IMG/VR virus record: IMGVR_UViG_3300025767_000115
Span: 1-25,342 of that record
Length of the DNA stretch: 25,342 nucleotides
Reading direction: 5' to 3' (one strand)
Source: a virus
The notes beneath the pieces were generated by a model. The model was not told the origin of the DNA. It saw only the letters and a list, made by a program, of their open reading frames with translations, and made no database searches. A program made the translations under genes and the position numbers. The number at the start of each line of letters is the position of its first letter. Position 1 is the stretch's first letter. Shown piece after piece: positions 1,811 to 25,342 of the stretch.

Positions 1811-1827
1811 TTAATATTTATACCTAA
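1811..1827 (+). promoter_or_regulatory. Candidate late-promoter motif upstream of 1845
   Basis: The 53-base gap after the chaperone-like gene contains TTAATATTTATACCTAA, ending 17 bases before the next ATG. The same ATATTTAT core recurs in the other larger gaps of this window. No Bacteroidota-type TTG is seen at the usual upstream spacing. Assignment as a promoter is inference from recurrence and position. Confidence 0.4.
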
Positions 1828-1844
1828 CAAAAGGTAATTATCAA

Positions 1845-2177
1845 ATGAGAATAGACGGCCCAAGTTTTTCCGGTTCGATTACACAAGCTCCATCGGCATA
1901 CGCTGATTTGAGCGGTTCGTTTACAGGTTCCTTTACGGGTTCACTTAGTGGTTCATTTATTGGTGATATTACTGTTCAGCAAGCAGCATTTAATGATTTG
2001 GTGGTAAAACAAACTTTTACTGCTGGAACTGAAAATTTTGATGGCGGTGTAAATATTGTTAATAGTGGTTCAATAGAAGTAAGTGGTTCAGTAAATCTAA
2101 CTGCTGGAAATTCATTTTCGGTAGATGGTGTAAATGTATTGGATTCGGCATTGGCATTCTCAATAGCATTAGGATAA
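1845..2177 (+). CDS. Small Gly/Ser/Thr-rich virion or fibre-associated protein
   Basis: The product is 110 residues. The N-terminal half has a short tandem pattern SGSFTGSFTGSLSGSF (residues about 23-38), followed by beta-type repeats such as VNIVNSGSIEVSGSVNL. The opening GPSFSGS resembles SSFSGSFRGDGS near the N-terminus of the giant fibre at 2525, so both may share a head fold or bind each other. No catalytic motif, signal peptide or membrane segment is seen. It begins a new cluster after a gap with a candidate promoter motif and is followed 4 bases later by the next gene. I do not recognise a named family; a structural role is inferred from composition and neighbours. Confidence 0.55.
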   Translation: MRIDGPSFSGSITQAPSAYADLSGSFTGSFTGSLSGSFIGDITVQQAAFNDLVVKQTFTAGTENFDGGVNIVNSGSIEVSGSVNLTAGNSFSVDGVNVLDSALAFSIALG

Positions 2178-2181
2178 GAAT

Positions 2182-2514
2182 ATGGCAAATTTATTTAAAA
2201 ATAGTATAAAAGGACCTGCTAGTACTGGTGGATTGGTGGTTTATACTACCCCTTCTGCTACATCAACCACTGTAATTGGTGTAAATGTGGCAAATATCGT
2301 ATCCCAAAATATTTATGTAGATGTTCAGATAACTGATAGCTCTGCTGGAGTTACTAAATATTTAGTAAAGGGTGCAGTTATCCCACAAGGTTCATCCGCA
2401 GTTTTAGTGGGTGGAGAACAAAAGGTTGTATTAGAAGCAAATGATTCAATAACAGTAACATCTAATGTATTAAATTCGGCAGATGTTATTGTTTCAGTAT
2501 TAGAGATATCATAA
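2182..2514 (+). CDS. Small beta-rich virion protein, function unknown
   Basis: The product is 110 residues, opening MANLFKNSIKGPASTGG and continuing with alternating hydrophobic and polar strands (VNVANIVSQNIYVDVQITD; VVLEANDSITVTSN). The 'K.S.k....gg.vvYT.P....T.vig...aN' opening resembles, from memory, small putative structural proteins in T4-like marine phages, possibly a single beta-sandwich. It lies 4 bases after the preceding gene and 10 bases before the giant fibre gene, so it is almost certainly translated with them. It could be a fibre connector, a decoration protein or an attachment protein; the sequence does not decide. Confidence 0.55.
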   Translation: MANLFKNSIKGPASTGGLVVYTTPSATSTTVIGVNVANIVSQNIYVDVQITDSSAGVTKYLVKGAVIPQGSSAVLVGGEQKVVLEANDSITVTSNVLNSADVIVSVLEIS

Positions 2515-2524
2515 TTAGAGGTTA

Positions 2525-11500: not shown

Positions 11501-12811
11501 CATAGAATAAGTTTCGCTAGCCAGGGTGCATACTTTAGTGGTAATGTAATAGCTGGTTCATCTCATAGAGCACCAATCTTCTACGATTCGAATAATACGG
11601 GTTACTATATGGACCCAACTTCAGATTCTAACTGGGAAGGGTTATCTACCTATGGTAAAATGAGAATCGGTTTGACTGCTAGGTCAAACTACCGAAGAAA
11701 CAACTACACTGGTGATTCTCGTTATTGGACTGGTGTACATGGTTGGGGAACAACGGATTTAATCTCAATGTTCGACCAAGGTTCTGGTTTCATCGATACA
11801 TGGTCAAACCCAGCTAACCAACCTGCTGGTACATCTCACTGGGTAGGTATCCAAGCATCTCACTTTAATGGTGGATACAACTATGGATATGGTATCCAAA
11901 TCGTTGGTGGACCAATCCAAGGTTTATGGCATACCTCATACTGGTCATCTAAGAGAAGTTGGTACAAAATTGCGATGTATGAGTTGAATGAATATTCAAA
12001 CGCATTCTACGCAACTGTAATGTATGATTCCAACGATACTAGTTATCGTATCGACCCGAATAGTTCATCTCAATTACGGCAGGTATATGCAAACGACTGG
12101 TTCAGAGCACAAGGTGCAAGTGGTTTCTACTTCCAAGATAGAGGATGTGGTATCCGTGCAGTAAGAGATGAAGGTGGACAGTATGGTACTGTTGCTACTT
12201 ATGGTTCGGATGTTGGTGGATACGAAGGTTTCTCTATCGGTGGTAGAATGGTATTCATGCATGATATGAGTTCTGCTAACGGTCTTTACAATGATGTTGA
12301 GAACGAATGGCATACATTAGGATATCGAAACGCTTGGTACGGAATCTATTACAATGGTTCTAGAAAAGGTAGAGCTGAATCTTATGGTTGGGCAGTTGAA
12401 GGTGATTTAAGAGCTACTGGTGATGTTATCGCTTACTACTCTGATATGAGATTGAAGGATAAGGTAGGTGATATCGAAAACGCTCTTGATAAAGTTTCTA
12501 AATTAAATGGTTTCTATTATAGAAACAATAAAGAAGCCAATATGATTGGTTATGAGGGAACTAATTTACAAGTAGGTCTTTCAGCGCAAGAAGTTGAAGA
12601 AGTTCTTCCTGAAATCGTTCACCCAGCTCCATTAGCACAATCATTAGGATATGATTACAAAACTATCAACTACGATAGAGTTGTACCTCTTTTAGTTAAC
12701 GCAATTAAAGAACAAAAATCAATTGTGGATGAACAAAAAGAAGAAATCGAATATTTAAAGTCAGAACTTTCAGAAATGAAAGAAATGTTGAAAAAATTAT
12801 TAAACAAATAA
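2525..12811 (+). CDS. Giant collagen-like tail fibre with 17 YYD/DP motifs and Peptidase_S74 C-terminus
   Basis: One uninterrupted frame encodes 3428 residues. Residues 1-282 form a beta-rich head with two fibre motifs (FRGDGSELNNIP; ISGDGSGLFNVP) and the segment YASGSNVFGDESIDTHQFTG, a pattern common in T4-like fibre proteins. Residues 283-664 are a perfect Gly-X-Y stretch. Residues of about 665-790 hold a conserved fibre block (TQTIMNTEIVQIADNIITLN). Residues 873-3184 carry 17 copies of 'PI.YDsndtgYYvDPns.S', each followed by a different beta-rich module. The end is a Peptidase_S74 intramolecular chaperone: SDMRLK (Ser3306, Lys3311), GLSAQEVEEVLPEIV, then a coiled coil (about 3393-3428). 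By analogy with endosialidase-type S74 domains, cleavage before Ser3306 would release 123 residues after trimerisation. GAGG precedes the ATG. Fibre identity is secure; receptor and module folds are unknown. Confidence 0.92.
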   Translation: MEYGGKNPNGINQVSQSLLSIDVQGVEQINISTSSVDINTSLNVENGVTASSFSGSFRGDGSELNNIPTTALTGDIARIAEGSATASLENGTTLEINVTTNIDGDVNATGEISGAFISGDGSGLFNVPAEALGDINRIKSGSAQAQISPNLGLVVDAKATINNDLLVTGSATFETDVQIDNDLTVGRDIIVDRNLSVAGRITAQELLTTFISSSVIYASGSNVFGDESIDTHQFTGSVLIKDSVVIPVFSSEPAGGQIGQLYYNNTDTNIYRYTSTGWEPAAGTAGTSGTSGTSGTSGSSGTSGSSGTSGVDGTNGTSGSSGTSGSSGTDGSAGTSGTSGSSGTSGSSGTDGSAGSSGTSGSSGTSGSSGTDGSAGSSGTSGSSGTSGSSGTSGSSGKSGSSGTSGSSGTSGSSGVDGEQGPQGPAGNDGSSGTSGSSGTSGSSGTSGSSGTSGSSGRDGADGVGGSAGTSGSSGTSGSSGTSGSSGTSGSSGASGSSGSSGTSGSSGTSGRDGAGGEGGTPGTSGSSGTSGSSGTSGSSGTSGSSGTSGSSGTSGSSGTSGSSGTSGSSGTSGVDGAQGVPGSPGTSGSSGTSGSSGTSGSSGTSGSSGTSGSSGTSGSSGTSGSSGTSGSSGSSGSSGTSGSGGTSGSSGTSGSSGTSGTSGLLALTGNTDNGIITLNGSAPNATVESNLTFDGTTLSIIGNLNVSGTQTIMNTEIVQIADNIITLNSNFTSGTPSENAGIEVLRGSEATRQFYWNEGSDRWYADTNFQVAGRIYANDIDTGQGATEVYLMNQNVRTSDTPTFSGVYTTNIGINDSGMDVYINFSDANPTFRGQTHGGEFRFYGDKDQNASMLYLGSIDAAKIIDAGVAMYAPIYYDSDNDSYYLNPAGTSNLYGLTVNQTISGTITDATQLVREDNRTISPSELTSGRMKFGFTSWANNNSSPYADFLHLRSYTDSSGGSDNLVMFKKSGIGMRIWQQTYGSSTPYSSYADVLDSTNNPYAYNMNQYVRTTDSPQFARVYIDNTSNYIDTNAGYLSFKSNGNEMTFGGSTSMYINYRAALGGTPTTWIWNAGSSTSYATHYMADVYGDRFYERTNTAYYLDPASTSVLNNMNIEDGIYHNGDTNTYMQFHASDQWRVVTGGSERLEVNNSAVSINSGIPLVMQGRIEPDTPDDYDQTAVTSLTNAPIYFPELNVGTTNTYLPAFHMRSRYNSGYRTHMNVGLYKRASAWGDNDTGFYVALGGNDSYPTKEWKFTYGTHIYNSDGFVSTPGSFRAPIFYDYDDTTYRIDGNGDSILRNLELRTYGLRLLRNYSYNGIWFNGGTDANHVLWNDYYGGPTSKGAAGSGTLDGMKWNTLQGLHIRGGSSGAYDIAKFWNPSSSTSNAHYVQLYAANVEQLGTRSGYALAPNQMRSPIYYDYTDTGAYIDPNGYSNIYRSSGPVIDITKTGSAPGNDTTLRVTNTYGNHSWGVVGEFRIDGNSGTDKPAIIFTSGQTSTTWATGYNQTTSNFAITQDRGYRNGGWGTVRMQVDTSGNVTNYVSTYSPIYYDNNNSAYYADPDSNSRFYDLQLRGNYVRTYAHSGSDFTSGTLVSTSIPASATNGASFVLEATGKSYSGDAPFSFMAQGYLYANTIINYSGVHFGKPGFTQMKIFNNGGTLAFWWPRVSYWNSFAVHVRDAGGDDRNLVTSITNSTEPTGTKKVTVNMLVSATYGVNNNTGDLYATRYYDSNNTAFYTDPASTSQMNYIDAHRFRDRDNTNYYLEPATGANLYGSAGSFVITGGYPQLVIRQNDGTPDASIHFDAGYARKFNIGPGAGTSEEREFGFSVYSAPRGTHYFTPFRINADTGYIQIGDRDNPAYPLDVLGNAYFRNTLYMGNDQEIQLFTSSGNIRGYIKATESNDAHLVIATSGGEDISFRDGGTGGQWNMIIRGDGQTLINSRIDSPIYYDRNNTAYYLDPNTTGTSLNAAGFINGSNINTYIRYLGTGVSYDNDRTQKVSNGIAIYRAYNGGANSPWTYDTSVQFNTAGAGFELSADWISSNSTGLKIRSLRDCCQNWSSWTDVATSNRSFTNAVDLRAPIFYDSDNPSYFVNPNGRSRLAEIDYGNSGYYWRSGSWGWRHQTPSGYIEFGPANTSHAHIYTDRSNFYFNQQLQVNGGTLINTNDVQSQIFYDRNDTNYYVDPNSTSRLNALQVNKTYYREDYIDVPGSFNGSYAWVRFNISRFNGGGSPVEFSISRRINDNGNNPYGGCTARYIVNSREWHSGQENAWYFYTEHGSYNANSNPYGYFIRSAGPRDLASGGYWFYMQLLQGVRYRISFASDMNFNNNGIGGIEYGVSDPGGVRRQLLGSGVMGNNSTYNNVNADRFYNGDDPSYFADFGSEIRMPYQNGGTMRFRTNTHWDSQSGIDLIGGAGEFRMSSDVGNLNLRVDGWGIFYDYVNSPIYYDLNDSGYYVNPRSRSRMSGLNLRGVDNQASGDDAILWIEKPNNNDWGMIITGNLDYGIDLRMASSHTYGLRLLSGGGESFLLNNDYARHNSDMRAPIFYDSNDTGYYVDPNSYSNMGDIRGTEIYARNWFRNDNSGEGLYNQSTGMHWYSDSNRRWRIYGGQSTVELAMATAGNNIRGYFYADNGNSVGILDAGGSWAIRHANDNGTYFYTDNGTYEFGVGRDVVGGNYGTVVTTSTRGGWGGYSINNGWVFMHDHSNAAGIYNDYENEWAILMYRNSYVQLMHNGTYQLETQSYGVYMRDQVRASIYYDHNTGYYFNGDGLSRMNHVNIIGSAGRYSLLVGPEVTYTNGRTSIYNDSNRYGVVVNAPYYPHLYINAYADNGNTTHGAVLSMLGNLTSGGYRKWNMGIANRNPNEFSIGWYDNNENPHYGVGVGWSYPARWWIDTGGNSIATGSHRAPIFYDYDNTGYYTNPASYSNMNEGNFAGRMWFSNYLVSRNQGGMMGDYNVTGTRSKVIWTIGESWPIGNMYGLAYEYGSGYDHHLALRNNGSTYHRISFASQGAYFSGNVIAGSSHRAPIFYDSNNTGYYMDPTSDSNWEGLSTYGKMRIGLTARSNYRRNNYTGDSRYWTGVHGWGTTDLISMFDQGSGFIDTWSNPANQPAGTSHWVGIQASHFNGGYNYGYGIQIVGGPIQGLWHTSYWSSKRSWYKIAMYELNEYSNAFYATVMYDSNDTSYRIDPNSSSQLRQVYANDWFRAQGASGFYFQDRGCGIRAVRDEGGQYGTVATYGSDVGGYEGFSIGGRMVFMHDMSSANGLYNDVENEWHTLGYRNAWYGIYYNGSRKGRAESYGWAVEGDLRATGDVIAYYSDMRLKDKVGDIENALDKVSKLNGFYYRNNKEANMIGYEGTNLQVGLSAQEVEEVLPEIVHPAPLAQSLGYDYKTINYDRVVPLLVNAIKEQKSIVDEQKEEIEYLKSELSEMKEMLKKLLNK
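3371..4516 (+). repeat. Collagen-like Gly-X-Y coding repeat, 127 triplets, within the giant fibre gene
   Basis: Glycine occupies every third residue from 283 to 664 with no phase break. Most triplets are GTS and GSS, arranged as six-residue GTSGSS units, with occasional punctuation such as GVDG, GEQGPQGPAG, GRDGADG and GSPG. At DNA level this is an 18-base quasi-repeat. A 29-base block starting GGTTCTTCTGGGACAAGTGG recurs near 3479, 3650 and 3740, and a version with ACGAGTGG recurs near 4289 and 4469. Identical synonymous codon choice in these blocks points to duplication or recombination and not only to protein-level selection. The product would form a trimeric triple-helical stalk. Confidence 0.9.
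5141..12076 (+). repeat. Seventeen degenerate copies of a 'P-I-[YF]-Y-D...YY-x-D-P...S' motif in the giant fibre
   Basis: A segment of about 22 residues recurs with starts near 5141, 5790, 6350, 6761, 7151, 7685, 7766, 8345, 8748, 9012, 9600, 9830, 10128, 10756, 11214, 11565 and 12008. Examples are APIFYDSNDTGYYVDPNS (10128), SPIYYDNNNSAYYADPDS (7151) and APIFYDSNNTGYYMDPTS (11565). Copies near 9600, 10756 and 6350 are degenerate, missing the DP or the second tyrosine. Spacing runs from about 80 to 650 bases, and the intervening sequence differs each time. The copies look like module boundaries or a repeated strand-turn-strand element along the fibre. Confidence 0.85.
10400..10760 (+). repeat. 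Duplicated fibre module, copy A (paralogue near 12100-12425)
   Basis: This segment encodes GGNYGTVVT...FMHDHSNAAGIYNDYENEW...YRNSY. The second copy encodes GGQYGTVAT...FMHDMSSANGLYNDVENEW...YRNAW. The order of conserved blocks is the same, and both copies are followed by a Q/ESYG element. Each sits downstream of a YYD/DP motif copy. The divergence indicates an old internal duplication, or the same module acquired twice. Confidence 0.7.
12100..12425 (+). repeat. Duplicated fibre module, copy B (directly before the S74 domain)
   Basis: This is the partner of the module near 10400-10760, sharing the FMHD, YND-ENEW and YRN blocks in the same order. It lies immediately upstream of the Peptidase_S74 domain (from about 12430), so it would be the receptor-distal tip of the mature fibre once the chaperone is cleaved away. 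Confidence 0.7.
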
Positions 12812-12815
12812 TAAG

Positions 12816-13058
12816 ATGGCAATCGAAAAGGAAATAGTTTTAAATAAATTAGGTATTAATGTTCAAACACCTCATATTGAGATAGTGAAGCGAGTTTCAT
12901 TTATTGAAGATGGGGTGGAGGTTAACCGAACTCACACAGAGGTAATTTATACATTTAAGGATGAAGAGCATATTTTTGTGAGTGAATCTCAATTTGTACA
13001 AGATATCTGGATGGAAGTATCAAGAAGCTTTGTGGAAGCTAGTGGTAGTATTCAATAG
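12816..13058 (+). CDS. Small acidic conserved phage protein, function unknown
   Basis: The product is 80 residues beginning MAIEKEIVLNKLGINVQ and rich in beta-forming residues and acidic charge (VEVNRTHTEVIYTFKDEEH). There is no signal peptide, membrane segment or recognised motif. It starts 4 bases after the giant fibre stop, suggesting coupled translation, and is followed by the first of the longer spacers with candidate promoter motifs. Possible roles include a fibre assembly factor or a small virion component, but nothing in the sequence decides this and I do not recognise the family. Confidence 0.6.
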   Translation: MAIEKEIVLNKLGINVQTPHIEIVKRVSFIEDGVEVNRTHTEVIYTFKDEEHIFVSESQFVQDIWMEVSRSFVEASGSIQ

Positions 13059-13064
13059 AGTTAT

Positions 13065-13078
13065 ATATATTTATTGGT
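13065..13078 (+). promoter_or_regulatory. Candidate late-promoter motif, distal copy of a pair
   Basis: TATATTTATTGG lies in the 85-base gap before 13144. A near-identical copy lies 40 bases downstream, making this the only gap with two clear copies. It is 69 bases from the ATG, so it could be a second start site or a duplication remnant. Confidence 0.35.
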
Positions 13079-13104
13079 AGAATAATCTCTTTTGAAGGAT
13101 TACT

Positions 13105-13118
13105 CTATATTTATTAGT
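13105..13118 (+). promoter_or_regulatory. Candidate late-promoter motif, proximal copy, upstream of 13144
   Basis: CTATATTTATTAGT is followed by AAGGAAAAATAAT and the ATG at 13144. The motif core ends 29 bases before the start, comparable with the copies before 1845, 15954 and 17586. It probably drives the 128-residue gene and possibly the sheath gene. Confidence 0.45.
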
Positions 13119-13143
13119 ACAAACTTAAAAAAGGAAAAATAAT

Positions 13144-13530
13144 ATGGCAATTTCATATTCTTGGAAAATTACCCAAATGACCAAAAAAACCATTGGGGAT
13201 AATGCAAATGTGGTTCTTCATGTTAGATGGGACCTAACTGGTACTGAATCTTCTACTGGTACTTCTGGTAAATTTAGTGGAGCTACTCCTTTGGATTTTG
13301 ATTCATCATCTACTGATGAATTTGTAGCATTCGGTGATTTAACTGAAGAAATGGTGATTGGTTGGATTAAAAATGTAGTAGTTGATTCTTATTGGGACCA
13401 TGTAGTTGAAAGAATTCAAAAGCAAATCGATGATATTGATGACCCAGAGGAAGAAGTTAAAGAAGAACTATTACCTTGGTCAACTGGTTCCGCTGAAGTA
13501 ACACCAACACCACCTACTGGTTCAGTATAA
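13144..13530 (+). CDS. Conserved T4-like phage structural-type protein (DUF7936-like)
   Basis: The product is 128 residues: MAISYSWKITQMTKK, then VVLHVRWDLTGT, GKFSGATPLDF, LTEEMVIGWIKNVV, YWDHVVERIQKQIDD and a low-complexity Pro/Thr tail. The pattern 'sY.WkI........nvV..v.W...G........F.G.tpl......f....dLTee.v..Wi......hv...Iq.qI' matches, from memory, a small family widespread in T4-like cyanophages and marine phages, annotated as a domain of unknown function (I believe DUF7936). Its place between fibre and sheath genes and its own candidate promoter suggest a late virion or assembly protein. AAGGAAA lies upstream of the ATG as a possible ribosome site. Role unproven. Confidence 0.6.
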   Translation: MAISYSWKITQMTKKTIGDNANVVLHVRWDLTGTESSTGTSGKFSGATPLDFDSSSTDEFVAFGDLTEEMVIGWIKNVVVDSYWDHVVERIQKQIDDIDDPEEEVKEELLPWSTGSAEVTPTPPTGSV

Positions 13531-13554
13531 TAATTGTTGGTTTGAACATTTTGG

Positions 13555-13568
13555 TTATATTTATATAA
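13555..13568 (+). promoter_or_regulatory. Candidate late-promoter motif upstream of the tail sheath gene
   Basis: TTATATTTATATAA sits in the 76-base gap before the sheath start at 13607, with the core ending 42 bases upstream of the ATG. A TTG at 13534-13536 is 19 bases before the TATATTTA element, so this copy could also be read by a Bacteroidota housekeeping sigma factor, although the final G of TAnnTTTG is replaced by A. Confidence 0.45.
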
Positions 13569-13606
13569 GTAATAACAAATCGATTACTTAATAACACGGA
13601 GATAAT

Positions 13607-15904
13607 ATGGCAGAAAGAATTGTATCACCTGGTGTGTTCACAAGAGAAAATGACCTTTCATTCTTAGCACAAGGTGTAGGAGAAATAGGAGCAGCGTTTA
13701 TCGGACCTTTTAAGCAAGGACCAGCGTTTGTTCCCACAATTGTAAGAACTCAATCGGAGTTCGAAGATAAATTTGGTAGACCTGATGGTACTTACTATAC
13801 AGAGTATGCGGTTCAGAACTATTTAAGAGAAGCTGGAACTGCAACTATTGTTAGAGTAGCAGGTGTAGGTGGTTACCAACAAGCAGCACCAATTGGTTTA
13901 TTAGCTAGTGGTTCTGATGGAACTGTAAAATTAATCGCAGCTCTTCACTCAACATCAAATGGTGATGAAGAAGTTGGATTTAGTGGTTTCACAGTAACTG
14001 CATCTGATACTGTATCTGGTTCATTTGTGGTTAGTGGTAGTGGTCTTGGTGAAATTTCTTCATCATTACTTTCATCAGCTAACAACGATGTAACTGATGT
14101 ATTTGGTGTATCTGCATTGGGAACTAAAGATGCATATACCTACGCTTACTTCAGAAACGCAGTAGATGGTATTAATTTAAATGTAACTGAAAGTAAAGCT
14201 GTATTAGCAGAAGCACTTCCAACTCAGGACTTCGCTTATGATGCTAGTGTAGCAGCAACTCCTTGGGTTAAATCACAACTTATCTCCGGTGAAAGATATG
14301 ACCTATTCCGTTTCCATACTTTAGGACATGGTAATGGAGAAAACACAAGATTCAAAGTTTCTATCTCTGGTGTAAAAGCAGCGGGTGAAGATGGTGGAAC
14401 TGATTACTCAGTATTTAGTGTAACCATCCGTTCATTTGCGGATACCGATAAGAGAAAAGTAGTATTAGAAACATTTAATAATGTAAACTTAGACCCATCA
14501 TCTCCAAATTACATCGCAAGAGTAATTGGTGATAGATACTATACTGTTGATTCAGAAGGTAAGATTACTGAAAATGGTGATTGGTTGAATAACTCTAAAT
14601 ACATTAGAGTAGAGGTTGGAGCACAAGGTTCTTATCCTGTATCAGCTGCACCATTCGCACATGGAGCTTATGAAAACCCAATCAAAGTAACTGACCCAAC
14701 TTTAGTACCTGCGGTAGTTTACCAAACAACTTCAACTTCAAACACAACTGGTAATCCTTATCAATATGCTGGTTTTGATTTCGAAACTACTGGTGTTAAA
14801 GTGGATAACGCTAACTACTTAAAACCAATCCCTAATACGGCTGGTACTGGTTCGAATGTAGTATTCGGATTCGATTCTCAACTATCATTAGAAATGACTG
14901 GTTCTGCAGCAGCAGATATGATTAAGAGACAATTCACATTGGCATTCCAAGGTGGATTTGATGGAATGAGTCCTGCTAGAGAAATTGCTTTAGGAGCATC
15001 AATCTCAGCTGGTAACTCACAAGGATTTGATTTAACTGATTCAACTGCTAGTGGTTCAGTAGCATACGCTAAAGCTGTAAACGCAATCTCTAACGCTGAT
15101 GAGTTTGATATCAATATGGTAGTAACTCCAGGTATCGTAAGAAGATTACATACCGCAGTTGTAACTGATGTAATCGATATGGTAGAAGCTAGACAAGATT
15201 GTTTCTACATCTCAGACTTTACCGCAATCAATGATACTATCGCTCAGGCAACCGCACAAGCGGCAGCAGTAGATTCTAACTATGTTGGAACTTACTACCC
15301 TTGGGTTAAGACAGTAGATAACAATACTAACAAACTAATCTCAGTACCACCTTCAGTATTACTACCGGCGGTTTACGCAGCAAATGACGCTATTGCAGCT
15401 GAATGGTTCGCACCTGCTGGTTTGAATAGAGGTGGAATTGTAGGAGCAGTTTCAGTATTGAATAGATTAACACACTCTGAAAGAGATACTTTATACGAAA
15501 ACAAAGTAAACCCAATCGCTTCTTTCCCTGGACAAGGTATTGTGGCATTCGGACAGAAAACTTTGCAAGATAAGGCATCAGCATTGGATAGAATCAATGT
15601 AAGAAGATTATTAATCGGAGTTAAGAAATTCGTAGCATCTACTTCTAGATTCTTAGTGTTCGAACAAAATACCGCTCAGACAAGAGGTAGATTTATCAAC
15701 ACTGTACAACCTTACTTAGAGGGTATCCAACAAAGACAAGGATTGTACGCATTCAAAGTGGTTATGGATGAGACTAACAACACACCTGATGTGGTTGATA
15801 GAAACATACTTGCTGGACAGATTTTCCTCCAACCAACTAAGACCGCTGAATTCATTGTAATTGATTTCAACATCTTACCAACTGGAGCATCGTTCTCGGC
15901 ATAA
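13607..15904 (+). CDS. gp18: Contractile tail sheath protein (T4 gp18-like)
   Basis: The product is 765 residues (T4 gp18 has 659). The N-terminus MAERIVSPGVFTRENDLS, then GAAFIGPFKQGPAFVPTIV and FGRPDGTYYTEYAVQNYLREAG, is the hallmark start of tail sheath subunits. The C-terminal part (from about residue 505) carries the conserved packing domain: VVTDVIDMVEARQDCFYISDF, YYPWVKTVDN, VPPSVLLPAVYAAND, WFAPAGLNRGG, LDRINVRRLLIGVKKFV and a beta-rich end (IFLQPTKTAEFIVIDFNI). The variable middle (about 90-430) is the outward-facing insertion typical of this family. It polymerises around the tail tube and contracts on infection. GGAG at 13598-13601 precedes the ATG by 5 bases. The tube gene follows, as in T4. 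Identity is secure. Confidence 0.95.
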   Translation: MAERIVSPGVFTRENDLSFLAQGVGEIGAAFIGPFKQGPAFVPTIVRTQSEFEDKFGRPDGTYYTEYAVQNYLREAGTATIVRVAGVGGYQQAAPIGLLASGSDGTVKLIAALHSTSNGDEEVGFSGFTVTASDTVSGSFVVSGSGLGEISSSLLSSANNDVTDVFGVSALGTKDAYTYAYFRNAVDGINLNVTESKAVLAEALPTQDFAYDASVAATPWVKSQLISGERYDLFRFHTLGHGNGENTRFKVSISGVKAAGEDGGTDYSVFSVTIRSFADTDKRKVVLETFNNVNLDPSSPNYIARVIGDRYYTVDSEGKITENGDWLNNSKYIRVEVGAQGSYPVSAAPFAHGAYENPIKVTDPTLVPAVVYQTTSTSNTTGNPYQYAGFDFETTGVKVDNANYLKPIPNTAGTGSNVVFGFDSQLSLEMTGSAAADMIKRQFTLAFQGGFDGMSPAREIALGASISAGNSQGFDLTDSTASGSVAYAKAVNAISNADEFDINMVVTPGIVRRLHTAVVTDVIDMVEARQDCFYISDFTAINDTIAQATAQAAAVDSNYVGTYYPWVKTVDNNTNKLISVPPSVLLPAVYAANDAIAAEWFAPAGLNRGGIVGAVSVLNRLTHSERDTLYENKVNPIASFPGQGIVAFGQKTLQDKASALDRINVRRLLIGVKKFVASTSRFLVFEQNTAQTRGRFINTVQPYLEGIQQRQGLYAFKVVMDETNNTPDVVDRNILAGQIFLQPTKTAEFIVIDFNILPTGASFSA

Positions 15905-15920
15905 CAAAAAAGTGAATAAC

Positions 15921-15935
15921 TAATATTTATTAGTA
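15921..15935 (+). promoter_or_regulatory. Candidate late-promoter motif upstream of the tail tube gene
   Basis: TAATATTTATTAGTA lies in the 49-base gap between sheath and tube, with the core ending 23 bases before the ATG at 15954. It is followed by GAGGAAA (15941-15947), a plausible ribosome site. A separate promoter would allow extra tube synthesis. Confidence 0.45.
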
Positions 15936-15953
15936 TAAAAGAGGAAATATAAA

Positions 15954-16442
15954 ATGGCAGAAGTATTAGAATTTAACGAAATGTTCTTCACCAACTTCGA
16001 ACCGAAGATGAAGAACCGCTATATTATGGAGATTGATGGTATTCAATCATACTTAATCAAAACAGCGGCAAGACCTTCAATCAACTTCGAAACTGTGAAG
16101 TTAGACCACATCAACACTTATAGAAAACTACAAGGTAAAGGTGAGTGGCAGGATATTACAATCACATTGTATGACCCGATTGTACCTTCAGGGGCACAAC
16201 AGGTAATGGAATGGGTGAGATTGGGATATGAATCTCTAACGGGTAGAAAAGGATACGCGGATTTCTATAAGAAAGATATCGATTTCTATATGTTAGGACC
16301 TGTTGGTGATAAAATCGAACAATGGAAGTTAAAAGGAGCATTTATTGCATCAGCTAACTTCAACGATTTAGATTTCTCTTCTAATGACCCTGCTGATATC
16401 GAATTGACTTTAGCATACGATTACGCTATTTTGGAATTCTAA
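15954..16442 (+). CDS. gp19: Tail tube protein (T4 gp19-like)
   Basis: The product is 162 residues, almost exactly the length of T4 gp19 (163). It opens MAEVLEFNEMFFTNFEPKMKN and includes RYIMEIDGIQSYLIKTAARP, a WQDITITLYDPI strand and an acidic beta-rich C-terminus (DPADIELTLAYDYAILEF). This is the T4-type tube family, whose subunits stack as hexameric rings to form the inner tube through which DNA passes. GAGGAAA lies seven bases upstream of the ATG. The sheath gene precedes it, and a strong hairpin terminator follows, separating this highly expressed unit from the chaperone unit. Identity is secure from length, order and pattern. Confidence 0.93.
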   Translation: MAEVLEFNEMFFTNFEPKMKNRYIMEIDGIQSYLIKTAARPSINFETVKLDHINTYRKLQGKGEWQDITITLYDPIVPSGAQQVMEWVRLGYESLTGRKGYADFYKKDIDFYMLGPVGDKIEQWKLKGAFIASANFNDLDFSSNDPADIELTLAYDYAILEF

Positions 16443-16474
16443 GAAATTATCCACTACTAATTATATTTTTGAAG

Positions 16475-16501
16475 AAGGTTCTCTATGTGAGAACCTTTTT
16501 T
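16475..16501 (+). terminator. Rho-independent terminator after the tail tube gene
   Basis: AAGGTTCTC (16475-16483) pairs perfectly with GAGAACCTT (16489-16497) across a five-base loop (TATGT) and runs straight into a T tract ending at 16501. It closes the sheath/tube transcription unit 33 bases after the tube stop. Confidence 0.9.
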
Positions 16502-16521
16502 CATTTTATAACTTTTTTGTT

Positions 16522-16540
16522 TCTATATACTTATATATAC
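16522..16540 (+). promoter_or_regulatory. Weak candidate promoter for the chaperone unit
   Basis: TCTATATACTTATATATAC lies between the terminator and the ATG at 16547. It is a degenerate version of the ATATTTAT motif (C for T in the core). A promoter is expected here because the upstream unit is terminated and a second terminator ends the pair of genes that follow. The exact element is uncertain. Confidence 0.3.
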
Positions 16541-16546
16541 AATTAA

Positions 16547-17320
16547 ATGTATAATGTTATGAGTGAAAAACAATTTGATTTCCCAACGGAAGTTATTGAT
16601 TTACCATCACAAGGAAAGGTTTATCCATTAGATAATCCTTTATCATCTGGTAAAGTTACATTAAAATATATGACAGCAAAGGAAGAAGATATCTTATCTT
16701 CCCAAAACCTTATTAAAAAGGGAGTAGTGTTGGATAAATTATTCGAATCCATTGTTGTAGATAAAGTAAACATTGATGATATCACTATTGGTGATAAGAA
16801 CGCAATTATACTCGCAACACGAGTATTAGGGTATGGTCCTGAGTATCCAATGAGATTCTATTCTACAAAATTGGGAGAAGAAGTTGAAGCAGTGGTTCAT
16901 TTAGGTAAGGTAAGTACTAAAGAAGTTGATTTATCTGGATTTAACAACAAAAATGAATTCGAATTCACAACCCCAGTTGGAAAGAATAAATTGGTATTTA
17001 AATTGTTGACTCATGGTGATGAGAAGGCAATTGAAAAAGATATCGCAGCATTGGAAAAGTTTAACAAAGATGCATCCTTTGATATTACTACTCGATTAAG
17101 ATATATGATTAAATCAGTTGATGGAAACTCAGATTTGGGGGTAATCAATAGATTTGCTTCAAATATGTTGGTTAGAGATAGTAGAGCATTTAGGAACTAT
17201 ATCAAGGAAATCCAACCTGATATGGACATGACTTATGAGCATGAGCATGAAGATGGTGAAAAGGAGGTAGTGCCCATCACGTTGGGCGTTAACTTTTTTT
17301 GGCCTGGCGAAGAATCATAG
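16547..17320 (+). CDS. gp26-like baseplate/tail assembly chaperone protein
   Basis: The product is 257 residues from ATG 16547; a second in-frame ATG at 16559 gives MSEKQFDFPTEVIDLP, which may be the true start, as neither has a clear ribosome site. The block FPTEVIDLPSQGKVYPLDNP, followed by LKYMTAKEEDILSSQNLIKKG and IGDKNAIILATRVLGYG, is typical of the T4 gp26-type family (T4 gp26 is 208 residues). It ends with an acidic/His stretch (YEHEHEDGEKEVV) and NFFWPGEE. Its position just before the tape-measure region is where other tailed phages encode tail assembly chaperones, so that role is likely. A seven-T run at 17294-17300 lies in the overlap with the open frame of the next gene. Family fairly sure; role inferred. 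Confidence 0.75.
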   Translation: MYNVMSEKQFDFPTEVIDLPSQGKVYPLDNPLSSGKVTLKYMTAKEEDILSSQNLIKKGVVLDKLFESIVVDKVNIDDITIGDKNAIILATRVLGYGPEYPMRFYSTKLGEEVEAVVHLGKVSTKEVDLSGFNNKNEFEFTTPVGKNKLVFKLLTHGDEKAIEKDIAALEKFNKDASFDITTRLRYMIKSVDGNSDLGVINRFASNMLVRDSRAFRNYIKEIQPDMDMTYEHEHEDGEKEVVPITLGVNFFWPGEES

Positions 17321-17327
17321 TCAATTA

Positions 17328-17519
17328 ATGCACAACCAAATATTTGAGTTGTGTTACTATGGAAACGGATTTACTCAGTTTGATGTGTATAAAATGCCAA
17401 CACATCTTAGGAACTTCTATTACAACAAATTATTAGAAGCTAAGAGACTTGAGAAAGAAGCAACTGAAAAAGCAAACAAAAATATAAAGACACCATCTAA
17501 AGTTAGGGTAAGGAAGTAA
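17328..17519 (+). CDS. Small partner of the gp26-like protein (possible tail assembly chaperone second frame)
   Basis: The product is 63 residues: MHNQIFELCYYGNGFTQFDV, then YKMPTHLRNFYYNKLLEAKR and a lysine-rich tail. The 'LcYYg.GF...dVy.MP..LR.fYy.kL..a...E' pattern is reminiscent, from memory, of small proteins that follow gp26-like genes in T4-like phages. It starts 7 bases after the gp26-like stop with no Shine-Dalgarno sequence. Its frame is open upstream to 17271, so it could also be read as an extension of the preceding gene by a +1 shift. The last codons and stop form part of a terminator hairpin. It is probably an assembly factor for the tape measure or baseplate; not recognised beyond this pattern. 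Confidence 0.65.
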   Translation: MHNQIFELCYYGNGFTQFDVYKMPTHLRNFYYNKLLEAKRLEKEATEKANKNIKTPSKVRVRK

Positions 17520-17545
17520 ACTCTTCTATTATCCTAACTTTTTTT
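17499..17545 (+). terminator. Rho-independent terminator overlapping the end of the small chaperone ORF
   Basis: AAAGTTAGG (17499-17507) pairs with CCTAACTTT (17533-17541). The stem continues through four more pairs (GTAA with TTAT, one wobble), an A/A mismatch, and an inner GGAAG/CTTCT stem (17512-17516 with 17523-17527) around loop TAAACT. A seven-T tract ends at 17545. The stop codon (17517-17519) lies in the apical loop, so the 5' arm is coding sequence. Confidence 0.88.
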
Positions 17546-17550
17546 GTATC

Positions 17551-17564
17551 CGATATTTATAGAT
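17551..17564 (+). promoter_or_regulatory. Candidate late-promoter motif upstream of 17586
   Basis: CGATATTTATAGAT follows directly after the preceding terminator; the core ends 25 bases before the ATG at 17586. Being placed right after a terminator strengthens the case that this motif starts transcription of the tape-measure/baseplate unit. Confidence 0.5.
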
Positions 17565-17812: not shown

Positions 17813-20032
17813 ATGGCAGACTCTCAAAATATCAGAGAACAAAGAGAACTTCTTCAACTTCAACAAAAAGAACTTGAAGGTAGAAAAAATCTGTCTGCTG
17901 AAGAGCAAAGGTCATTAAACTTAGTTAAATCTCAAATAAAAGAATTAAATCGATTACTTGCGGTAGAAAGTCGAAGAAAGCAAGTAAACGAAGATATTAA
18001 TAAAGAGTTTGCATCTTTTGCAAATGAATTTAGAAAATTATCCCCATCCGTAAAACAACAATTGGGTAGTACGAAAGAAATGAGCGGAGTTTATGCTCAA
18101 CTTACTACCAGAGCAGCTAGAGAAGCTGCAATTGCTAAAAACAATAATGGTATTGTTAAACAAAATGCGGAACATCGTAAGGAAGTATTAGAAACTGCAA
18201 AAAATAATCTAGTCCAACAAGCATCTGCGGCCGCACAAGCTCAAGATGAATTATTGGGTATTTCTCAATATGAAAGAGAACGAATGGATTTGGAATCCAG
18301 ACGAAATGAATTGGGTAGTGCTAATGTAGATGCGTTACAAGCCGCTTCAAGACAAACCGAATTACTATCCAAAAAAACCGAAATACTTCAGGGAATGAAT
18401 GATTCGTTACCCGCTCCAATTCAACAAATGGTGGGATTTGCTAAATCATTCAGAGGAGCTATTGTAGCGGGATTAGGTCCTTTATTTATAATTGGTACTT
18501 TATTAGCGGCAGCTGTAAGTTCTTTCACATCTTTGGATGAGGGGGCTAAGGCATTTAGAGAAACAACGGGGCTTACTAACTCACAAATGGCCGGTATCAA
18601 ATCTCAGGCAAATGATATTGTTGGTAATTTTGGCGATTTGGGTGTAAATGCTGAAAAGGTATTTAACACTGTAGCTGCATTAAAATCTGAATTTAGTGAT
18701 GTTGCTAACTTTGGTGATGAAGTGGTAGCTGGATTAACCTTATTAAATACCAACTTTGGAGTATCAGCTGATTCTGCGGCCAAAGTACAAGGTATATTCG
18801 AACAAATTGGAGGATTAACCTCAGAAACCGCAGCCGGTGTTCAGTTGCAAGTAGCCAATATGGCTAAATTAGCTGGTGTGGCACCTGCTAAGATATTTGA
18901 AGATATAGCTGAAAACGCTGAGATTGCATCAACTCTTTTTCAAGGTGATGTTGAATCATTAACCAAAGCGGCAATTGAAGCTAGAAGATTGGGTACAAAC
19001 CTTAAATCAGTAGCAGCAACTACCGAACACTTATTAGATTTCCAAAGTAACATTGGGGATGAGTTAGTAGCGGCTACTTTTGTTGGGGGTCAATTCAACT
19101 TAACACAAGCTCGTTCGTTAGCAGCAGCGGGTAAGACTGTTGAAGCTCAGAAAGAAGTACTAAAACAACTTAATAGAGCGGGTGATTTTAGAAAGCAAGA
19201 TTACTTTACACAAAGACAATTAGCCAAAGCGGCGGGTATGAGTGTTGAAGAAATTAATAAACAACTAAATGCACAAGAGAAACTAAACTCATTATCATCG
19301 GAACAAAGGGCATTGGCTGAACAAGCTATATCTCAAGGTTTAGATATTTCAAATATAAATAAAGACCAATTAGCATCTCAAGTTGAGCAATTTAGTAAAC
19401 AACAAGAACAACAAGCTCAGTTAGAACAACTCCAAAATGCCTTTATGGGTATAGCATCTACGGTGGGTACTGTATTGACGCCATTATTACAGGCGTTGAT
19501 GCCTATCATTCAAGCTTTATTATTTCCGGTTCAACTTATCGCAGAAGGATTCAAATTCTTCGCTGATAATTTGGCATTAGCGATACCACTTGCAGCCGGA
19601 TTAGCTATTGCATTTGCACCAGCTATTATAGCTGCACTTTCAACTGCGGTTGGTTTTATTATGAGTACATTCGCTCAAATTCCTTTAGGTTTGGGTATTC
19701 CATTGGGAATCGCTGCAGTTGGTGGTTTATTCAGTATGGTATCTAAAGCTAAAAGTGTGGCTCAAGTTGGTGACCTTGCTATAAATCCAAATGGTGGTCC
19801 TGTGGTAATGTCTCCGAGAGAAGGTGGATTATTCCAAGGAACCAAAAACGATGGATTAATGATGGCTCCTAATATTGGAGCTGGTGGTGGTGTTAGTGAT
19901 AGAAAAATAGATGAATTAATAAACGCTGTTAAACAAACTAAGGATGTTTATATGGATGGTAGACGAGTTACATCTAATGTTGCAAGAAGTGTTGATAAAT
20001 CAACTATGAATAACTTTGCATTTGGAACTTAA
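17813..20032 (+). CDS. Tail tape measure protein
   Basis: The product is 739 residues (T4 gp29 is 590). Residues 1-200 are helical and coiled-coil with high Gln/Glu/Lys/Arg. A hydrophobic segment follows at about 216-237 (AIVAGLGPLFIIGTLLAAAV), then a long Ala-rich helical middle. A large hydrophobic region at about 587-645 (ALAIPLAAGLAIAFAPAIIA) precedes a C-terminal segment VGDLAINPNGGPVVMSPREG, a motif often seen at tape-measure ends. Coiled coil plus membrane-type segments and position between tube/chaperones and baseplate genes identify it. The tape measure sets tail length and leaves the tube during infection. At about 0.15 nm per residue the predicted tail is close to 110 nm. Confidence 0.85.
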   Translation: MADSQNIREQRELLQLQQKELEGRKNLSAEEQRSLNLVKSQIKELNRLLAVESRRKQVNEDINKEFASFANEFRKLSPSVKQQLGSTKEMSGVYAQLTTRAAREAAIAKNNNGIVKQNAEHRKEVLETAKNNLVQQASAAAQAQDELLGISQYERERMDLESRRNELGSANVDALQAASRQTELLSKKTEILQGMNDSLPAPIQQMVGFAKSFRGAIVAGLGPLFIIGTLLAAAVSSFTSLDEGAKAFRETTGLTNSQMAGIKSQANDIVGNFGDLGVNAEKVFNTVAALKSEFSDVANFGDEVVAGLTLLNTNFGVSADSAAKVQGIFEQIGGLTSETAAGVQLQVANMAKLAGVAPAKIFEDIAENAEIASTLFQGDVESLTKAAIEARRLGTNLKSVAATTEHLLDFQSNIGDELVAATFVGGQFNLTQARSLAAAGKTVEAQKEVLKQLNRAGDFRKQDYFTQRQLAKAAGMSVEEINKQLNAQEKLNSLSSEQRALAEQAISQGLDISNINKDQLASQVEQFSKQQEQQAQLEQLQNAFMGIASTVGTVLTPLLQALMPIIQALLFPVQLIAEGFKFFADNLALAIPLAAGLAIAFAPAIIAALSTAVGFIMSTFAQIPLGLGIPLGIAAVGGLFSMVSKAKSVAQVGDLAINPNGGPVVMSPREGGLFQGTKNDGLMMAPNIGAGGGVSDRKIDELINAVKQTKDVYMDGRRVTSNVARSVDKSTMNNFAFGT

Positions 20033-22066: not shown

Positions 22067-24594
22067 TGTGGCCAAAGTTATCGCAAATAAATGATAAAAT
22101 ATACAACAAAATCACAGATAGAAATAATTACGAAGTAAGTAAATTAAATTGCTGGGTTCGAATTTTTTCTGGTGTGGGTAGTGGGTTGATTATGGTATCA
22201 AATCCAGATACCAAATTATTTGCCGCAACTGGTGAAGATGCTGGAGTTTATGGATTTGCAGGAGATACTCAAACTTCTGGGTATAGTGGTACATTAGGTA
22301 TTGATTGGAACGGAAAGGCTGTAAATCCAAATGTTGGTAGAAGTTTAAGACCCTCACCAATTGTAACTTCTATGGAGTTTGAAGAGGGAGAGGACCAGAT
22401 ATCCAGAAGTGCAAAATTATCAATCACTGCTTTTTCATTGGAACAAATGGAAAAGATTCAGCAATATTTTATGGAACCTGGATATCAATTGTTTATTGAG
22501 TGGGGTTGGAATACACCAGATGGTGTATCTCAAATGGTGAAAACAAAAACAAAAGAAGGTAATCCGGATTCTAAAAAAATAGTATCATCGGCAGCGGCAG
22601 GTAATTTAACTCAAAGTGGAATTGCAAATAAACATAACAAAAGTAATGGAGATTACGATAATTTTTTAGGATTTATTGTAGGGGGTTCGGTTGGAAACGA
22701 TGGTGAAAACTTTTCAATAACAATTGAAATGAGAGGAACTCCTGAACTACCAACTTATCTTCAAAATCATAAAGTAGTATTTACTCAACCTACTGAAACT
22801 ACTATAACCAAAGTACAAGGTTCAGATACTTATCCAAAATCAGATTTAACCAAAAAAGGCGAAGGTGGGGATTCACAATCAGTTGCATTGGATAGGAGAT
22901 TTGCTGCTATGTACAATAGACTACCTGCAAATAGACAGACTTCTGATGTTAGAAAACTAAAAAGTACATTTAACCTAGGAGATTTTGTTAATTTTGATGG
23001 TTTAGTTGAACAAAACATAAACTCATATATTCAAGCTAGCTTTGGTCAAAAATTATTAGCTTGGGTTAGGGGTAAAGATGCCGAAGCAATTGAAATCGAT
23101 AACTTTGAGGTTGAGAAGGAAAAAATGTTCTCAAAAAACAAATATTTAAGATTCGAAAAAGTAATTGATATCTTAAATACAAGTGGTATGGGTAGTTATA
23201 CAATTGGTGATAGACAATTGAACGCATCAATTGATATTTCTGATGTAAAGATAGGTGCATTTCCATTGATATACTCAACCAAACCCGAATCTCTGATAAT
23301 TCCTGGCAAAATACCTGATTTTACAAAATACTTTTTAAGTACTGATAATGTGAATTATTCAACTGTAATCGATAATCCATTTGATGGTAATATCGATGGG
23401 ATTTCTTTTACAAGTGGTGATTCCACTGGTGATTTTATCGAATCCAAAGGATATTGGGGATATTTAAAGAACCTATACATCAATATGGATATGTTCTCTC
23501 AAAAAGTTTCCGTTCCAAACAAAAATTTTAGAGAAATTTTGTTAGATTTGTTAAATGAACTATCCTCAGCAGTAAATTCATTTTGGGACTTTCAAATTGT
23601 TGAGAATATAAAGGATGATAAACTTATCTACACAGTTATTGATAGAAATTGGGTAGGACAGAAACCCGGAAAACCAAAAGAATTTTATCATACTGGTGAG
23701 AATTGTAGATTCTTAGATTCATCTCTTACAATTGATATTCCGGGTGAGATGGCAAATCAAATTATCAACAGACGATTGGGGATTGCATCTCAAGCAGATG
23801 CCCCAATTGTAAAAGTTGGTAGTGGTACTTTTTTTGCAAAGGGTAGTGATAAATTTATGAGTGGTGTGGTTGTTAGAGGAAGTGAAATTGAAACTGAAGA
23901 ACAAACTACTCCTGATACAAATACTATAAAAGGACAAGAAGAACAAATAAAATTAAACAGACAAGAGATAGATGATATAACCGCAGGTTCTACCAGAACA
24001 ACAACAGGAACTCAAGGTAGTACAACTATTTCAGAATATAGCGCAAATGGTCAATTACTAAAAACAACTACATTTTCAGCTGGAGGTTATAGAACATATT
24101 ATGGTTCAACTCCAGAAGCCCAAAGATTAAAGCAATTGGAAACCGAAAATACGGAATTAAACACCAAAATGAATGAAACTAAGCAATCAAATTTATCTGC
24201 AAATGTTGATAAAACTGAGATAGTTCCAAAACCTATGTTGATTGATGAGATTGAAATTACCGATGATATGATAAAACCAACTGAAAATGGTGAAAATAGT
24301 TCATTTAGTGAAAATTTTAGAATTTATACATTTAAAGATACGAACTTATTGGATTATCTTAAAAATTTAAAAATATTAGGTAGTAGTGGAAGATTATCAC
24401 ACCCACTTCCAATTAAGTATTCATTTACTATTATTGGTACGAGTGGTATTCGTAGAGGTGATATGTTTAATATTGTTGGAATACCTGATAAATACAGAAA
24501 GAGTGGATTATTTCAAGTAAATGCAGTTACTCATACAATTGAGGGTATGCAATGGAAAACTCAAATAGAAGGATTATATAGACAAGTACAGTAA
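22066..24594 (+). CDS. Baseplate hub-like structural protein (gp27 / gpD-type)
   Basis: The product is 842 residues. The N-terminal third contains LNCWVRIFSGVG, RPSPIVTSMEFEEGEDQISR, SAKLSITAFSLEQMEKIQQY and FMEPGYQLFIEWGWNTPDG, a block I associate with large baseplate proteins of T4-like marine phages. The C-terminal end (about 780-842), PLPIKYSFTIIGTSGIRRGD, MFNIVGIPDKYRKSGLFQVN and AVTHTIEGMQWKT, resembles the last domain of hub proteins such as gp27 or P2 gpD. Between about 610 and 735 lies a Thr/Glu/Gln-rich, partly coiled-coil insertion (RLKQLETENTELNTKMNE). It overlaps its neighbours by one base at both ends (TAATG). No lysozyme domain is visible, so a gp5-type spike must be encoded elsewhere. 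Hub role inferred from position and C-terminal pattern. Confidence 0.68.
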   Translation: MWPKLSQINDKIYNKITDRNNYEVSKLNCWVRIFSGVGSGLIMVSNPDTKLFAATGEDAGVYGFAGDTQTSGYSGTLGIDWNGKAVNPNVGRSLRPSPIVTSMEFEEGEDQISRSAKLSITAFSLEQMEKIQQYFMEPGYQLFIEWGWNTPDGVSQMVKTKTKEGNPDSKKIVSSAAAGNLTQSGIANKHNKSNGDYDNFLGFIVGGSVGNDGENFSITIEMRGTPELPTYLQNHKVVFTQPTETTITKVQGSDTYPKSDLTKKGEGGDSQSVALDRRFAAMYNRLPANRQTSDVRKLKSTFNLGDFVNFDGLVEQNINSYIQASFGQKLLAWVRGKDAEAIEIDNFEVEKEKMFSKNKYLRFEKVIDILNTSGMGSYTIGDRQLNASIDISDVKIGAFPLIYSTKPESLIIPGKIPDFTKYFLSTDNVNYSTVIDNPFDGNIDGISFTSGDSTGDFIESKGYWGYLKNLYINMDMFSQKVSVPNKNFREILLDLLNELSSAVNSFWDFQIVENIKDDKLIYTVIDRNWVGQKPGKPKEFYHTGENCRFLDSSLTIDIPGEMANQIINRRLGIASQADAPIVKVGSGTFFAKGSDKFMSGVVVRGSEIETEEQTTPDTNTIKGQEEQIKLNRQEIDDITAGSTRTTTGTQGSTTISEYSANGQLLKTTTFSAGGYRTYYGSTPEAQRLKQLETENTELNTKMNETKQSNLSANVDKTEIVPKPMLIDEIEITDDMIKPTENGENSSFSENFRIYTFKDTNLLDYLKNLKILGSSGRLSHPLPIKYSFTIIGTSGIRRGDMFNIVGIPDKYRKSGLFQVNAVTHTIEGMQWKTQIEGLYRQVQ

Positions 24595-24950
24595 TGGGAG
24601 TTGGGAGATATAAACGATTAAAGAGAGAAAGTGATGGATTATTAAAAATCCCTAACATAGTTGTGTCTATACCTAAACCAATCGAACAAGATTACCAACG
24701 AGGTTATATAATTAGATATTTTGTACAAAAATCAAATGATATTAATGGTATCATTTATGAAGTTGATTCTAAACAATATTCAAAATTAAAATCATCTGAG
24801 CTATATACTTCTGTTTCATTGGATTGGCGAATTGGTGGAGACCCGATTGAGATTAAAAAATCCAATTCCGCTTCAATCCGAATCGCTTCTGAAGTAATTC
24901 CTAAACTTTCACTCTACCTTCCAAACCTTTTACAATTTCATCAAAAATAA
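24594..24950 (+). CDS. Small conserved tail-module protein, function unknown
   Basis: The product is 118 residues: MGVGRYKRLKRESDGLLKIP, then GYIIRYFVQKSNDINGIIYE, LYTSVSLDWRIGGDPIEIK and an end PKLSLYLPNLLQFHQK. The 'RYFvqK.Nd..g.I.EV....y..l.....y..v.l.WRI.G' pattern is reminiscent of small proteins found beside hub genes in T4-like marine phages, without an assigned role that I know. Its ATG overlaps the hub stop (TAATG), indicating coupled translation and probably matched stoichiometry. It is the last gene of the tail unit; no hairpin terminator is visible in the 36 bases that follow. Possible roles are baseplate assembly or tail completion. Confidence 0.6.
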   Translation: MGVGRYKRLKRESDGLLKIPNIVVSIPKPIEQDYQRGYIIRYFVQKSNDINGIIYEVDSKQYSKLKSSELYTSVSLDWRIGGDPIEIKKSNSASIRIASEVIPKLSLYLPNLLQFHQK

Positions 24951-24951
24951 T

Positions 24952-24982
24952 TTGGATATCTAAAATAATTTTCTTATATTTG
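24952..24982 (+). promoter_or_regulatory. Bacteroidota-type promoter (TTG-N20-TATATTTG)
   Basis: TTG at 24952-24954 and TATATTTG at 24975-24982 are separated by 20 bases, a perfect match to the TTG-N17-23-TAnnTTTG consensus of Bacteroidota/Flavobacteria primary promoters. The -7 element ends four bases before the ATG at 24987, so the transcript would be leaderless or nearly so. Unlike the recurrent late motif it ends in G and has the upstream TTG. Confidence 0.65.
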
Positions 24983-24986
24983 TAAG

Positions 24987-25342
24987 ATGATTGTAGTAGA
25001 GTCTAACAAAGAGAGAGAAGAATTCCTAAATCGATGGAACAACGAACCATCGATAATCATTCCTGCTTGGAGTGATTTGGAGAAGCATCCGATGAACAAT
25101 GAACTTTCGTTTTTGTTCATAAGGATGGATAAAACTGACTTTATTCTCATATACAACCATATTGATGGAAAATCCCATCATTTAGACCTTACCACCTCCG
25201 AACAACCAAAATGGGTGTGGAATAAGAAAGGGTTTCTACAAATGGATACAAAGATACAAAATCTTTTTGATATATCCACATACACCTTCTTTGATGAGAA
25301 TCGCTTGTTGGACTTCAAACCCGAAGAACAACCTTTTATCTC
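24987..25342 (+). CDS. Partial gene, N-terminal 118 residues, probable early/replication gene
   Basis: The frame starts at ATG 24987 and runs off the window with no stop. The visible protein begins MIVVESNKEREEFLNRWNNE, then PSIIIPAWSDLEKHPMNNEL, SFLFIRMDKTDFILIYNHID, a WVWNKKGFLQ segment and NLFDISTYTFFDEN. It is mixed alpha/beta and has no fibre-like composition. The 'iiP.w.D..kHP.n..LSFl......df.l..nH.D' pattern faintly resembles the N-terminal region of some phage DNA polymerases, but I cannot confirm this without the rest. It has its own host-type promoter, unlike the tail genes before it, which fits an early gene at the border of the late module. The gene call is good; the function is a guess. 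Confidence 0.55.
   Translation, partial: MIVVESNKEREEFLNRWNNEPSIIIPAWSDLEKHPMNNELSFLFIRMDKTDFILIYNHIDGKSHHLDLTTSEQPKWVWNKKGFLQMDTKIQNLFDISTYTFFDENRLLDFKPEEQPFI

Follow-up and report, generated by a model that had tools for sequence, protein, structure and literature searches.

A predicted leaderless transcript from a host-type promoter ahead of a phage DNA polymerase gene

Does a promoter of the Bacteroidota type that ends four bases ahead of a start codon, at the border between two gene modules of a phage, give rise to an mRNA without a leader, and which gene would it control? The question is raised by the last part of the window, as the whole stretch of DNA analysed is called here, an IMG/VR record 25,342 bases long. 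On its + strand, TTG (24952-24954) is followed by 20 bases, the box TATATTTG (24975-24982), TAAG (24983-24986) and ATG 24987, so that the exact TTG-N20-TATATTTG match and the -7 element ending four bases ahead of the ATG, both claimed in a preliminary description, are found in sequence and coordinates as given there. The accessible text of a study of F. johnsoniae gives the consensus TAHHTTTG with G at -5 and transcription starts 4-5 nt after the box (PMC6847099), and that of a study of F. psychrophilum places the box at -12 to -5 (PMC9723704). The box in the window conforms to TAHHTTTG, and TTTG of the -33 element lies at the usual spacing (TTTGG at 24951-24955 and N20). The features at the locus are as follows.

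24594-24950, + strand: last gene of the tail/baseplate module, 118 amino acids, no family found
24951-24955, + strand: -33 element TTTGG, its first base directly after the upstream stop codon; TTTGG is common to most relatives
24955-24974, + strand: AT-rich spacer of 20 nt with the 3' end TTTTCT (mostly TTTTCG in relatives)
24966-24968, + strand: in-frame stop TAA, read from the sequence, which closes the frame 5' of ATG 24987
24975-24982, + strand: -7 element TATATTTG of the type of the Bacteroidota primary sigma factor (consensus as in the accessible text of PMC6847099)
24987, + strand: predicted transcription start, the A of the ATG (from the published box-to-start distance and box position); G24986 is the alternative
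24987-25342, + strand: 5' part of a short family-A-type DNA polymerase gene, predicted from full-length relatives, Pfam DNA_pol_A, phrog_17 and a fold match to 1kfd

Taken alone, the match in the window is within chance, and its exactness in one AT-rich window proves nothing. In a window of equal composition, 0.56 occurrences of TTG-N20-TAHHTTTG are expected, and at least one was found in 40 of 100 shuffles; significance from the window alone was rejected on this ground. A second, looser match with N21 lies within a gene on the minus strand (19350-19381), and a scan for sigma-70 promoters gave no excess (26 found, 25.9 expected). The case for the putative promoter is carried by its conservation in relatives. 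A search of IMG/VR with the 118 visible residues of the downstream gene yielded 47 viral loci, and a box TA[TA][CA]TTTG with TTG at exactly N20 is present in 42 of them, with the ATG 4 nt after the box in 38 and 9 nt after it in four (L009, L010, L011, L017). One further locus (L040) has a box at 14 nt that lacks the TTG, and in four of the 47 (L036-L039) no box was found. The promoter is kept where the upstream sequence is different (L003, L008, L011, L017, L041-L048). That the match is a functionless accident of AT-rich DNA would agree with the 0.56 expected per window; it is hardly credible in view of the conservation in 42 of 47 loci and of the intergenic copies repeated genome-wide in related phages.

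A profile search added 80 loci, partly on the same contigs, and the joint set comprises 57 distinct upstream sequences including that of the window. The box stands 4-5 nt before the ATG in 29 of the 57, at 9 nt in three and, lacking the TTG, at 14 nt in one, while 24 have no promoter of their own, most of them overlapping or abutting the upstream stop codon. A few variant boxes (TATATTAG, TATCTTTA) keep the same distance to the ATG. One locus (L147, box TAACTTTA) was rejected as a leaderless case, the box lying within coding sequence, and was dropped from these counts; it was still counted as leaderless in the tree of 50 sequences, on which the promoter state changes six times. The 4-nt distance persists even in relatives with only about 45% protein identity, suggesting maintenance of the leaderless state itself. 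The three distinct relatives at 9 nt and the one at 14 nt show that strict leaderlessness is not required everywhere.

The gene downstream, which the preliminary description had left unnamed, is a DNA polymerase gene. Its reading frame runs out of the window after 118 visible codons; full-length relatives have 415-432 amino acids (the product would have about 422) and match the DNA polymerase family phrog_17. The Pfam DNA_pol_A match is weak, with an E value of 1.6e-8 in L003 (34.3 bits, at the curated cut-off, which only this relative reaches) and of 4.3e-7 in L015 and 0.075 in L041, both below it. Structure prediction (mean pLDDT 81, 15 sequences) gave the Klenow fragment 1kfd as the best PDB match (E 2.6e-16), and the aspartates D246, D248 and D382 (L003 numbering, alignment A1) are invariant across 15 aligned relatives. 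By its predicted fold and these aspartates the encoded protein is classed as a short DNA polymerase of the family A type, with a putative polymerase activity. What we take to be motif C reads YDS, not HDE, and the aspartates are retained despite this alteration. Several relatives also encode a family B polymerase (phrog_262).

The position of the gene agrees with the module edge proposed in the preliminary description, since the border runs from a tail module to a replication module in the same order as in Flavobacterium phage immuto (Immutovirus). Tail sheath, tail tube and a T4-type baseplate protein are encoded upstream of the promoter in the window, and the stop codon of the last tail gene ends at 24950, 36 nt before ATG 24987, with the promoter starting on the next base. 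A single reading frame of 3,428 amino acids (2525-12811) takes up 10.3 kb of the tail region. The order in immuto is sheath, tube, hub, tape measure, large gene and one further gene, and it continues across the record ends with a family A polymerase, two small genes, SSB, a recombinase, a 5'-3' exonuclease and a helicase. The window and immuto thus share the passage from the tail module to family A polymerase, SSB, recombinase, exonuclease and helicase; unlike the window, immuto has a hairpin and a T-run ahead of the polymerase and no TAHHTTTG there. The sheath is 52% identical to that of immuto with 48% of the query covered, and 47% identical over 99% to that of Microcystis phage Mel-JY01, which has the same gene order and is as close as immuto or closer. 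Many small immuto genes (L069 16811-26244; immuto 67-76 kb) are preceded by TTG-N20-TATATTTAGGTATCAATAA or TTG-N20-TATATTTA, and TATATTTAGGTATCAATAA is the -7 box with A replacing the nearly invariant G.

In seven related viral records examined in full, together with the window, two kinds of upstream word, TTTTCGTATATTTG and ATATTTAT, show the strongest enrichment. For the TTTTCGTATATTTG class with TTG at N19-21, 18 of 42 sites in a relative of 252 kb are intergenic against 2.2 expected, and sites of this class lie ahead of the genes for primase, short family A polymerase, SSB, DnaB helicase and a nuclease. The ATATTTAT class is a late motif, found ahead of sheath, tube, baseplate hub, gp20-type and head genes. 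In the form ATATTTAT[AT], about 20-45 nt before a gene, it is absent before 24987 and has six sites elsewhere in the window, listed below.

1814-1822, + strand: late motif ATATTTATA, 22 nt before the gene at 1845
13067-13075, + strand: late motif, the more distant of the two sites ahead of the gene at 13144
13107-13115, + strand: late motif ATATTTATT before the gene at 13144
13557-13565, + strand: late motif ATATTTATA before the tail sheath gene at 13607
15923-15931, + strand: late motif ATATTTATT before the tail tube gene at 15954
17553-17561, + strand: late motif ATATTTATA before a small gene starting near 17586

At these window sites (1814-17561) the late motif ATATTTAT looks like the host -7 box TATATTTG with the last G changed to A. 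The downstream genes of both classes were scored through their immuto homologues (42 and 112 promoter-bearing genes in total, the rest having no homologue). A structural gene follows in none of 17 cases of the host-type class and in 34 of 56 of the late motif (Fisher 3e-6), and counted by distinct immuto genes in none of seven against 12 of 22 (p 0.023). The late motif also stands ahead of some replication genes including SSB, and the classes overlap on the replication side. The preliminary description had called the promoter early. It is indeed unlike the late motif and its class avoids structural genes, but the data do not separate early from middle use, and 'early' is shown only in the sense of 'not late'.

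As to the host, the extended pattern TTTGG-N13-TTTTCG-TATATTTG has matches in 77 stretches of one-per-species genomes, a scan that had no scrambled control pattern for comparison. Bacteroidota names are borne by 73 of the 77, one is from Melainabacteria, one from Prochlorococcus and two lack a phylum (one of them Kapabacteria); within the limits of that scan, the pattern is nearly confined to Bacteroidota. The reading of the element as a promoter of host type is borne out by this distribution and by the repeated, intergenic and strand-correct copies in related phages. The distribution, together with the gene order and the similarity to immuto, also speaks for the host phylum that had been proposed, and the phage probably infects Bacteroidota. 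The sigma-ABfr or sigma-A promoters of F. johnsoniae, F. psychrophilum and B. thetaiotaomicron share with it TAHHTTTG, TTTG at -33 and an AT-rich spacer; the phage copies differ from them in a spacer of 20 in 34 of the 37 distinct host-type promoters of the seven records and the window (19 in the other three), in frequent TTTGG and TTTTCG, and in AAA within the spacer. This AAA, 8 bases after TTTGG, is present in 82-92% of 39 phage promoters and in at most 45% of 76 host promoters and is possibly a phage-specific element. A spacer palindrome TTTGGA...TCCAAA was rejected as a general feature, [TC]CAAA occurring in 11 of the 39 phage sites and five of the 76 host sites. Mel-JY01 (PP395634, L091-L093), labelled a Microcystis phage, has 27 matches to TTG-N19-21-TAHHTTTG against 11 in a reversed control, and three of its promoter patterns carry TTCGTATATTTG; the host assigned to it may be worth verifying.

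Because published transcription starts lie 4-5 nt after the box in the accessible text of PMC6847099, the polymerase mRNA should begin at A24987 and be leaderless. Host RNA polymerase would start at this base or one base earlier, the mRNA would begin with AUG, and the ribosome would start at this 5'-terminal AUG; a start 5 nt after the box, as in some published promoters, would lose the A of the AUG. The gene begins with AUG, and ATG 24987 is the sole canonical start, the codons read backward from it being AAG, TGT, ATT, TAT, TCT and TTT and then the stop TAA. The leaderless transcript suggested in the preliminary description is thus retained as a prediction (leader of 0-1 nt) from the published distance and the conserved 4 nt. 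Since the product is predicted to be a DNA polymerase, the promoter would activate the replication module without depending on the late tail operon. We consider it probable that a host primary-sigma promoter yields a leaderless polymerase mRNA and turns on replication apart from the late genes.

Leader length falls into two groups. Among the 37 distinct promoters the distance is 4-5 nt in nine and 15-40 nt in 28, with none between, and the nine belong to the short family A polymerase (six), a SET-domain protein, a glycosyltransferase-like protein and a family B polymerase. The SET-domain gene (L089:16708-17115; L252-L264, L270) has the 4-nt distance in 14 of 19 loci and no such promoter in the other five; for the glycosyltransferase-like gene (253 amino acids, 4 nt), the search gave no relative beyond itself. 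For the family B polymerase (L271-L350), 55 distinct upstream sequences were compared: seven are leaderless with the box 5 nt away and all have ATG, 13 have the promoter at 17-24 nt (nine TTG, four ATG), and 35 are promoterless (23 ATG, nine TTG, three ATT, the ATT being unsure). In both polymerases pooled, ATG is the start codon in 36 of 36 leaderless distinct copies and in 51 of 76 others with L147 dropped, the Fisher value of 8.7e-6 having been computed before its removal. The association is not significant when independent pairs alone are counted: the family B tree has four of these, of which 1.9 on average agree with it and none run counter to it. In 12 contigs with both polymerases (11 locus pairs and G006), a host-type promoter of its own precedes only A in five, only B in five and neither in two; none has one before both, and the clades are confounded. 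The accessible text of one source states that AUG matters for leaderless mRNAs and that GUG works in some named species (PMC9031893), and the ATG in all 36 leaderless copies fits this preference. A wider proposal is that the leaderless genes form a distinct class among host-sigma promoters, centred on the DNA polymerases of families A and B and the SET protein, in which the leader is all-or-nothing, the choice of start codon goes with it (ATG without a leader, often TTG with one) and leaderless initiation serves as a control switch for replication; we hold this only tentatively and think it rather doubtful.

The missing leader might instead be a by-product of packing, with the promoter filling the smallest gap after the upstream stop and no translational function attached. 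In the window and many relatives the TTG indeed lies 1 nt after the upstream stop, in others it overlaps the upstream gene, and the other arrangement of the polymerase gene is an overlap with the upstream stop. However, leadered promoters in the same genomes are equally tight to the upstream stop and yet have a leader of 15-40 nt, so that packing alone fails to explain the loss; L167 holds the 5-nt distance with 57 nt free upstream, and the leader lengths are bimodal rather than a continuum of packing. Compaction is possible as the origin of the missing leader, and as the full account it is unlikely, though it deserves some weight. Much less probable is that the polymerase is made mainly from leadered read-through transcripts of the upstream genes, the promoter being weak or minor. 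The stretch from the tail genes to the polymerase showed no terminator-like site, and in 24 of the 57 distinct upstream sequences the gene has no promoter of its own and is probably co-transcribed. However, loci with an exchanged upstream sequence still have the promoter at its exact spacing, and the tail genes carry the late motif, so that read-through would presumably come after the onset of replication.

The promoter could also be a middle one that requires a phage-altered RNA polymerase and acts in a middle window. Replication genes are of the middle class in T4, and the genes downstream are replication genes (primase, SSB, helicase, polymerase); moreover, the phage consensus, with the AAA frequencies given above, is tighter than that of the host. 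Against this, the box, the -33 element and the spacing are those of the host consensus, with no phage-specific replacement of either element, and we regard a middle promoter as no likelier than the packing account. The preferred reading is still a host primary-sigma promoter with a leaderless polymerase mRNA.

Leaderless genes of other bacteria have a box about 10-12 nt before the start in the accessible text of a survey (PMC3160421) and share with this locus the box position and the AUG, while the box is of the Bacteroidota type here and TANNNT there. The same text puts many Bacteroidetes genes under atypical signals (PMC3160421). Among phages, lambda cI is named as leaderless in the part of PMC9031893 available. 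Its mRNA likewise begins at AUG and is made by host RNA polymerase (the start here being predicted), whereas the present gene belongs to a T4-like tailed phage from another phylum and encodes a replication polymerase, not a repressor. A passing remark in a paper on phage AR9 describes the lack of a leader as frequent among phage transcripts (PMC5312081), which limits the novelty. In the literature covered, which consisted of titles and abstracts with subscription journals and preprints mostly outside, no leaderless transcripts in Bacteroidota phages were recognised. As for the hosts, leaderless mRNAs are put at 5.5% in F. psychrophilum in the accessible text of PMC9723704, and about 3.7% of leaders are under 10 nt in B. 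thetaiotaomicron. In 60 genomes from the family to which a Seonamhaeicola strain belongs, a loose form of the pattern exceeded its reversed control modestly at 4 nt (34 against 20) and showed no such excess at 10 nt (15 against 21) or 22 nt (32 against 29), and this comparison was set aside as too weak. Leaderless mRNAs are a minority in the host phylum, and their conserved use before the polymerase is the notable part of the finding.

Bacteroidota mRNAs lack Shine-Dalgarno sequences, leaderless mRNAs are reportedly rare in the phylum, and the early gene control of its phages has been little mapped. The conserved gene set described here offers a place to test both early control and leaderless mRNAs, and the promoter signature may be of use in linking uncultured viral contigs to hosts in the Bacteroidota and in spotting host labels that are doubtful.
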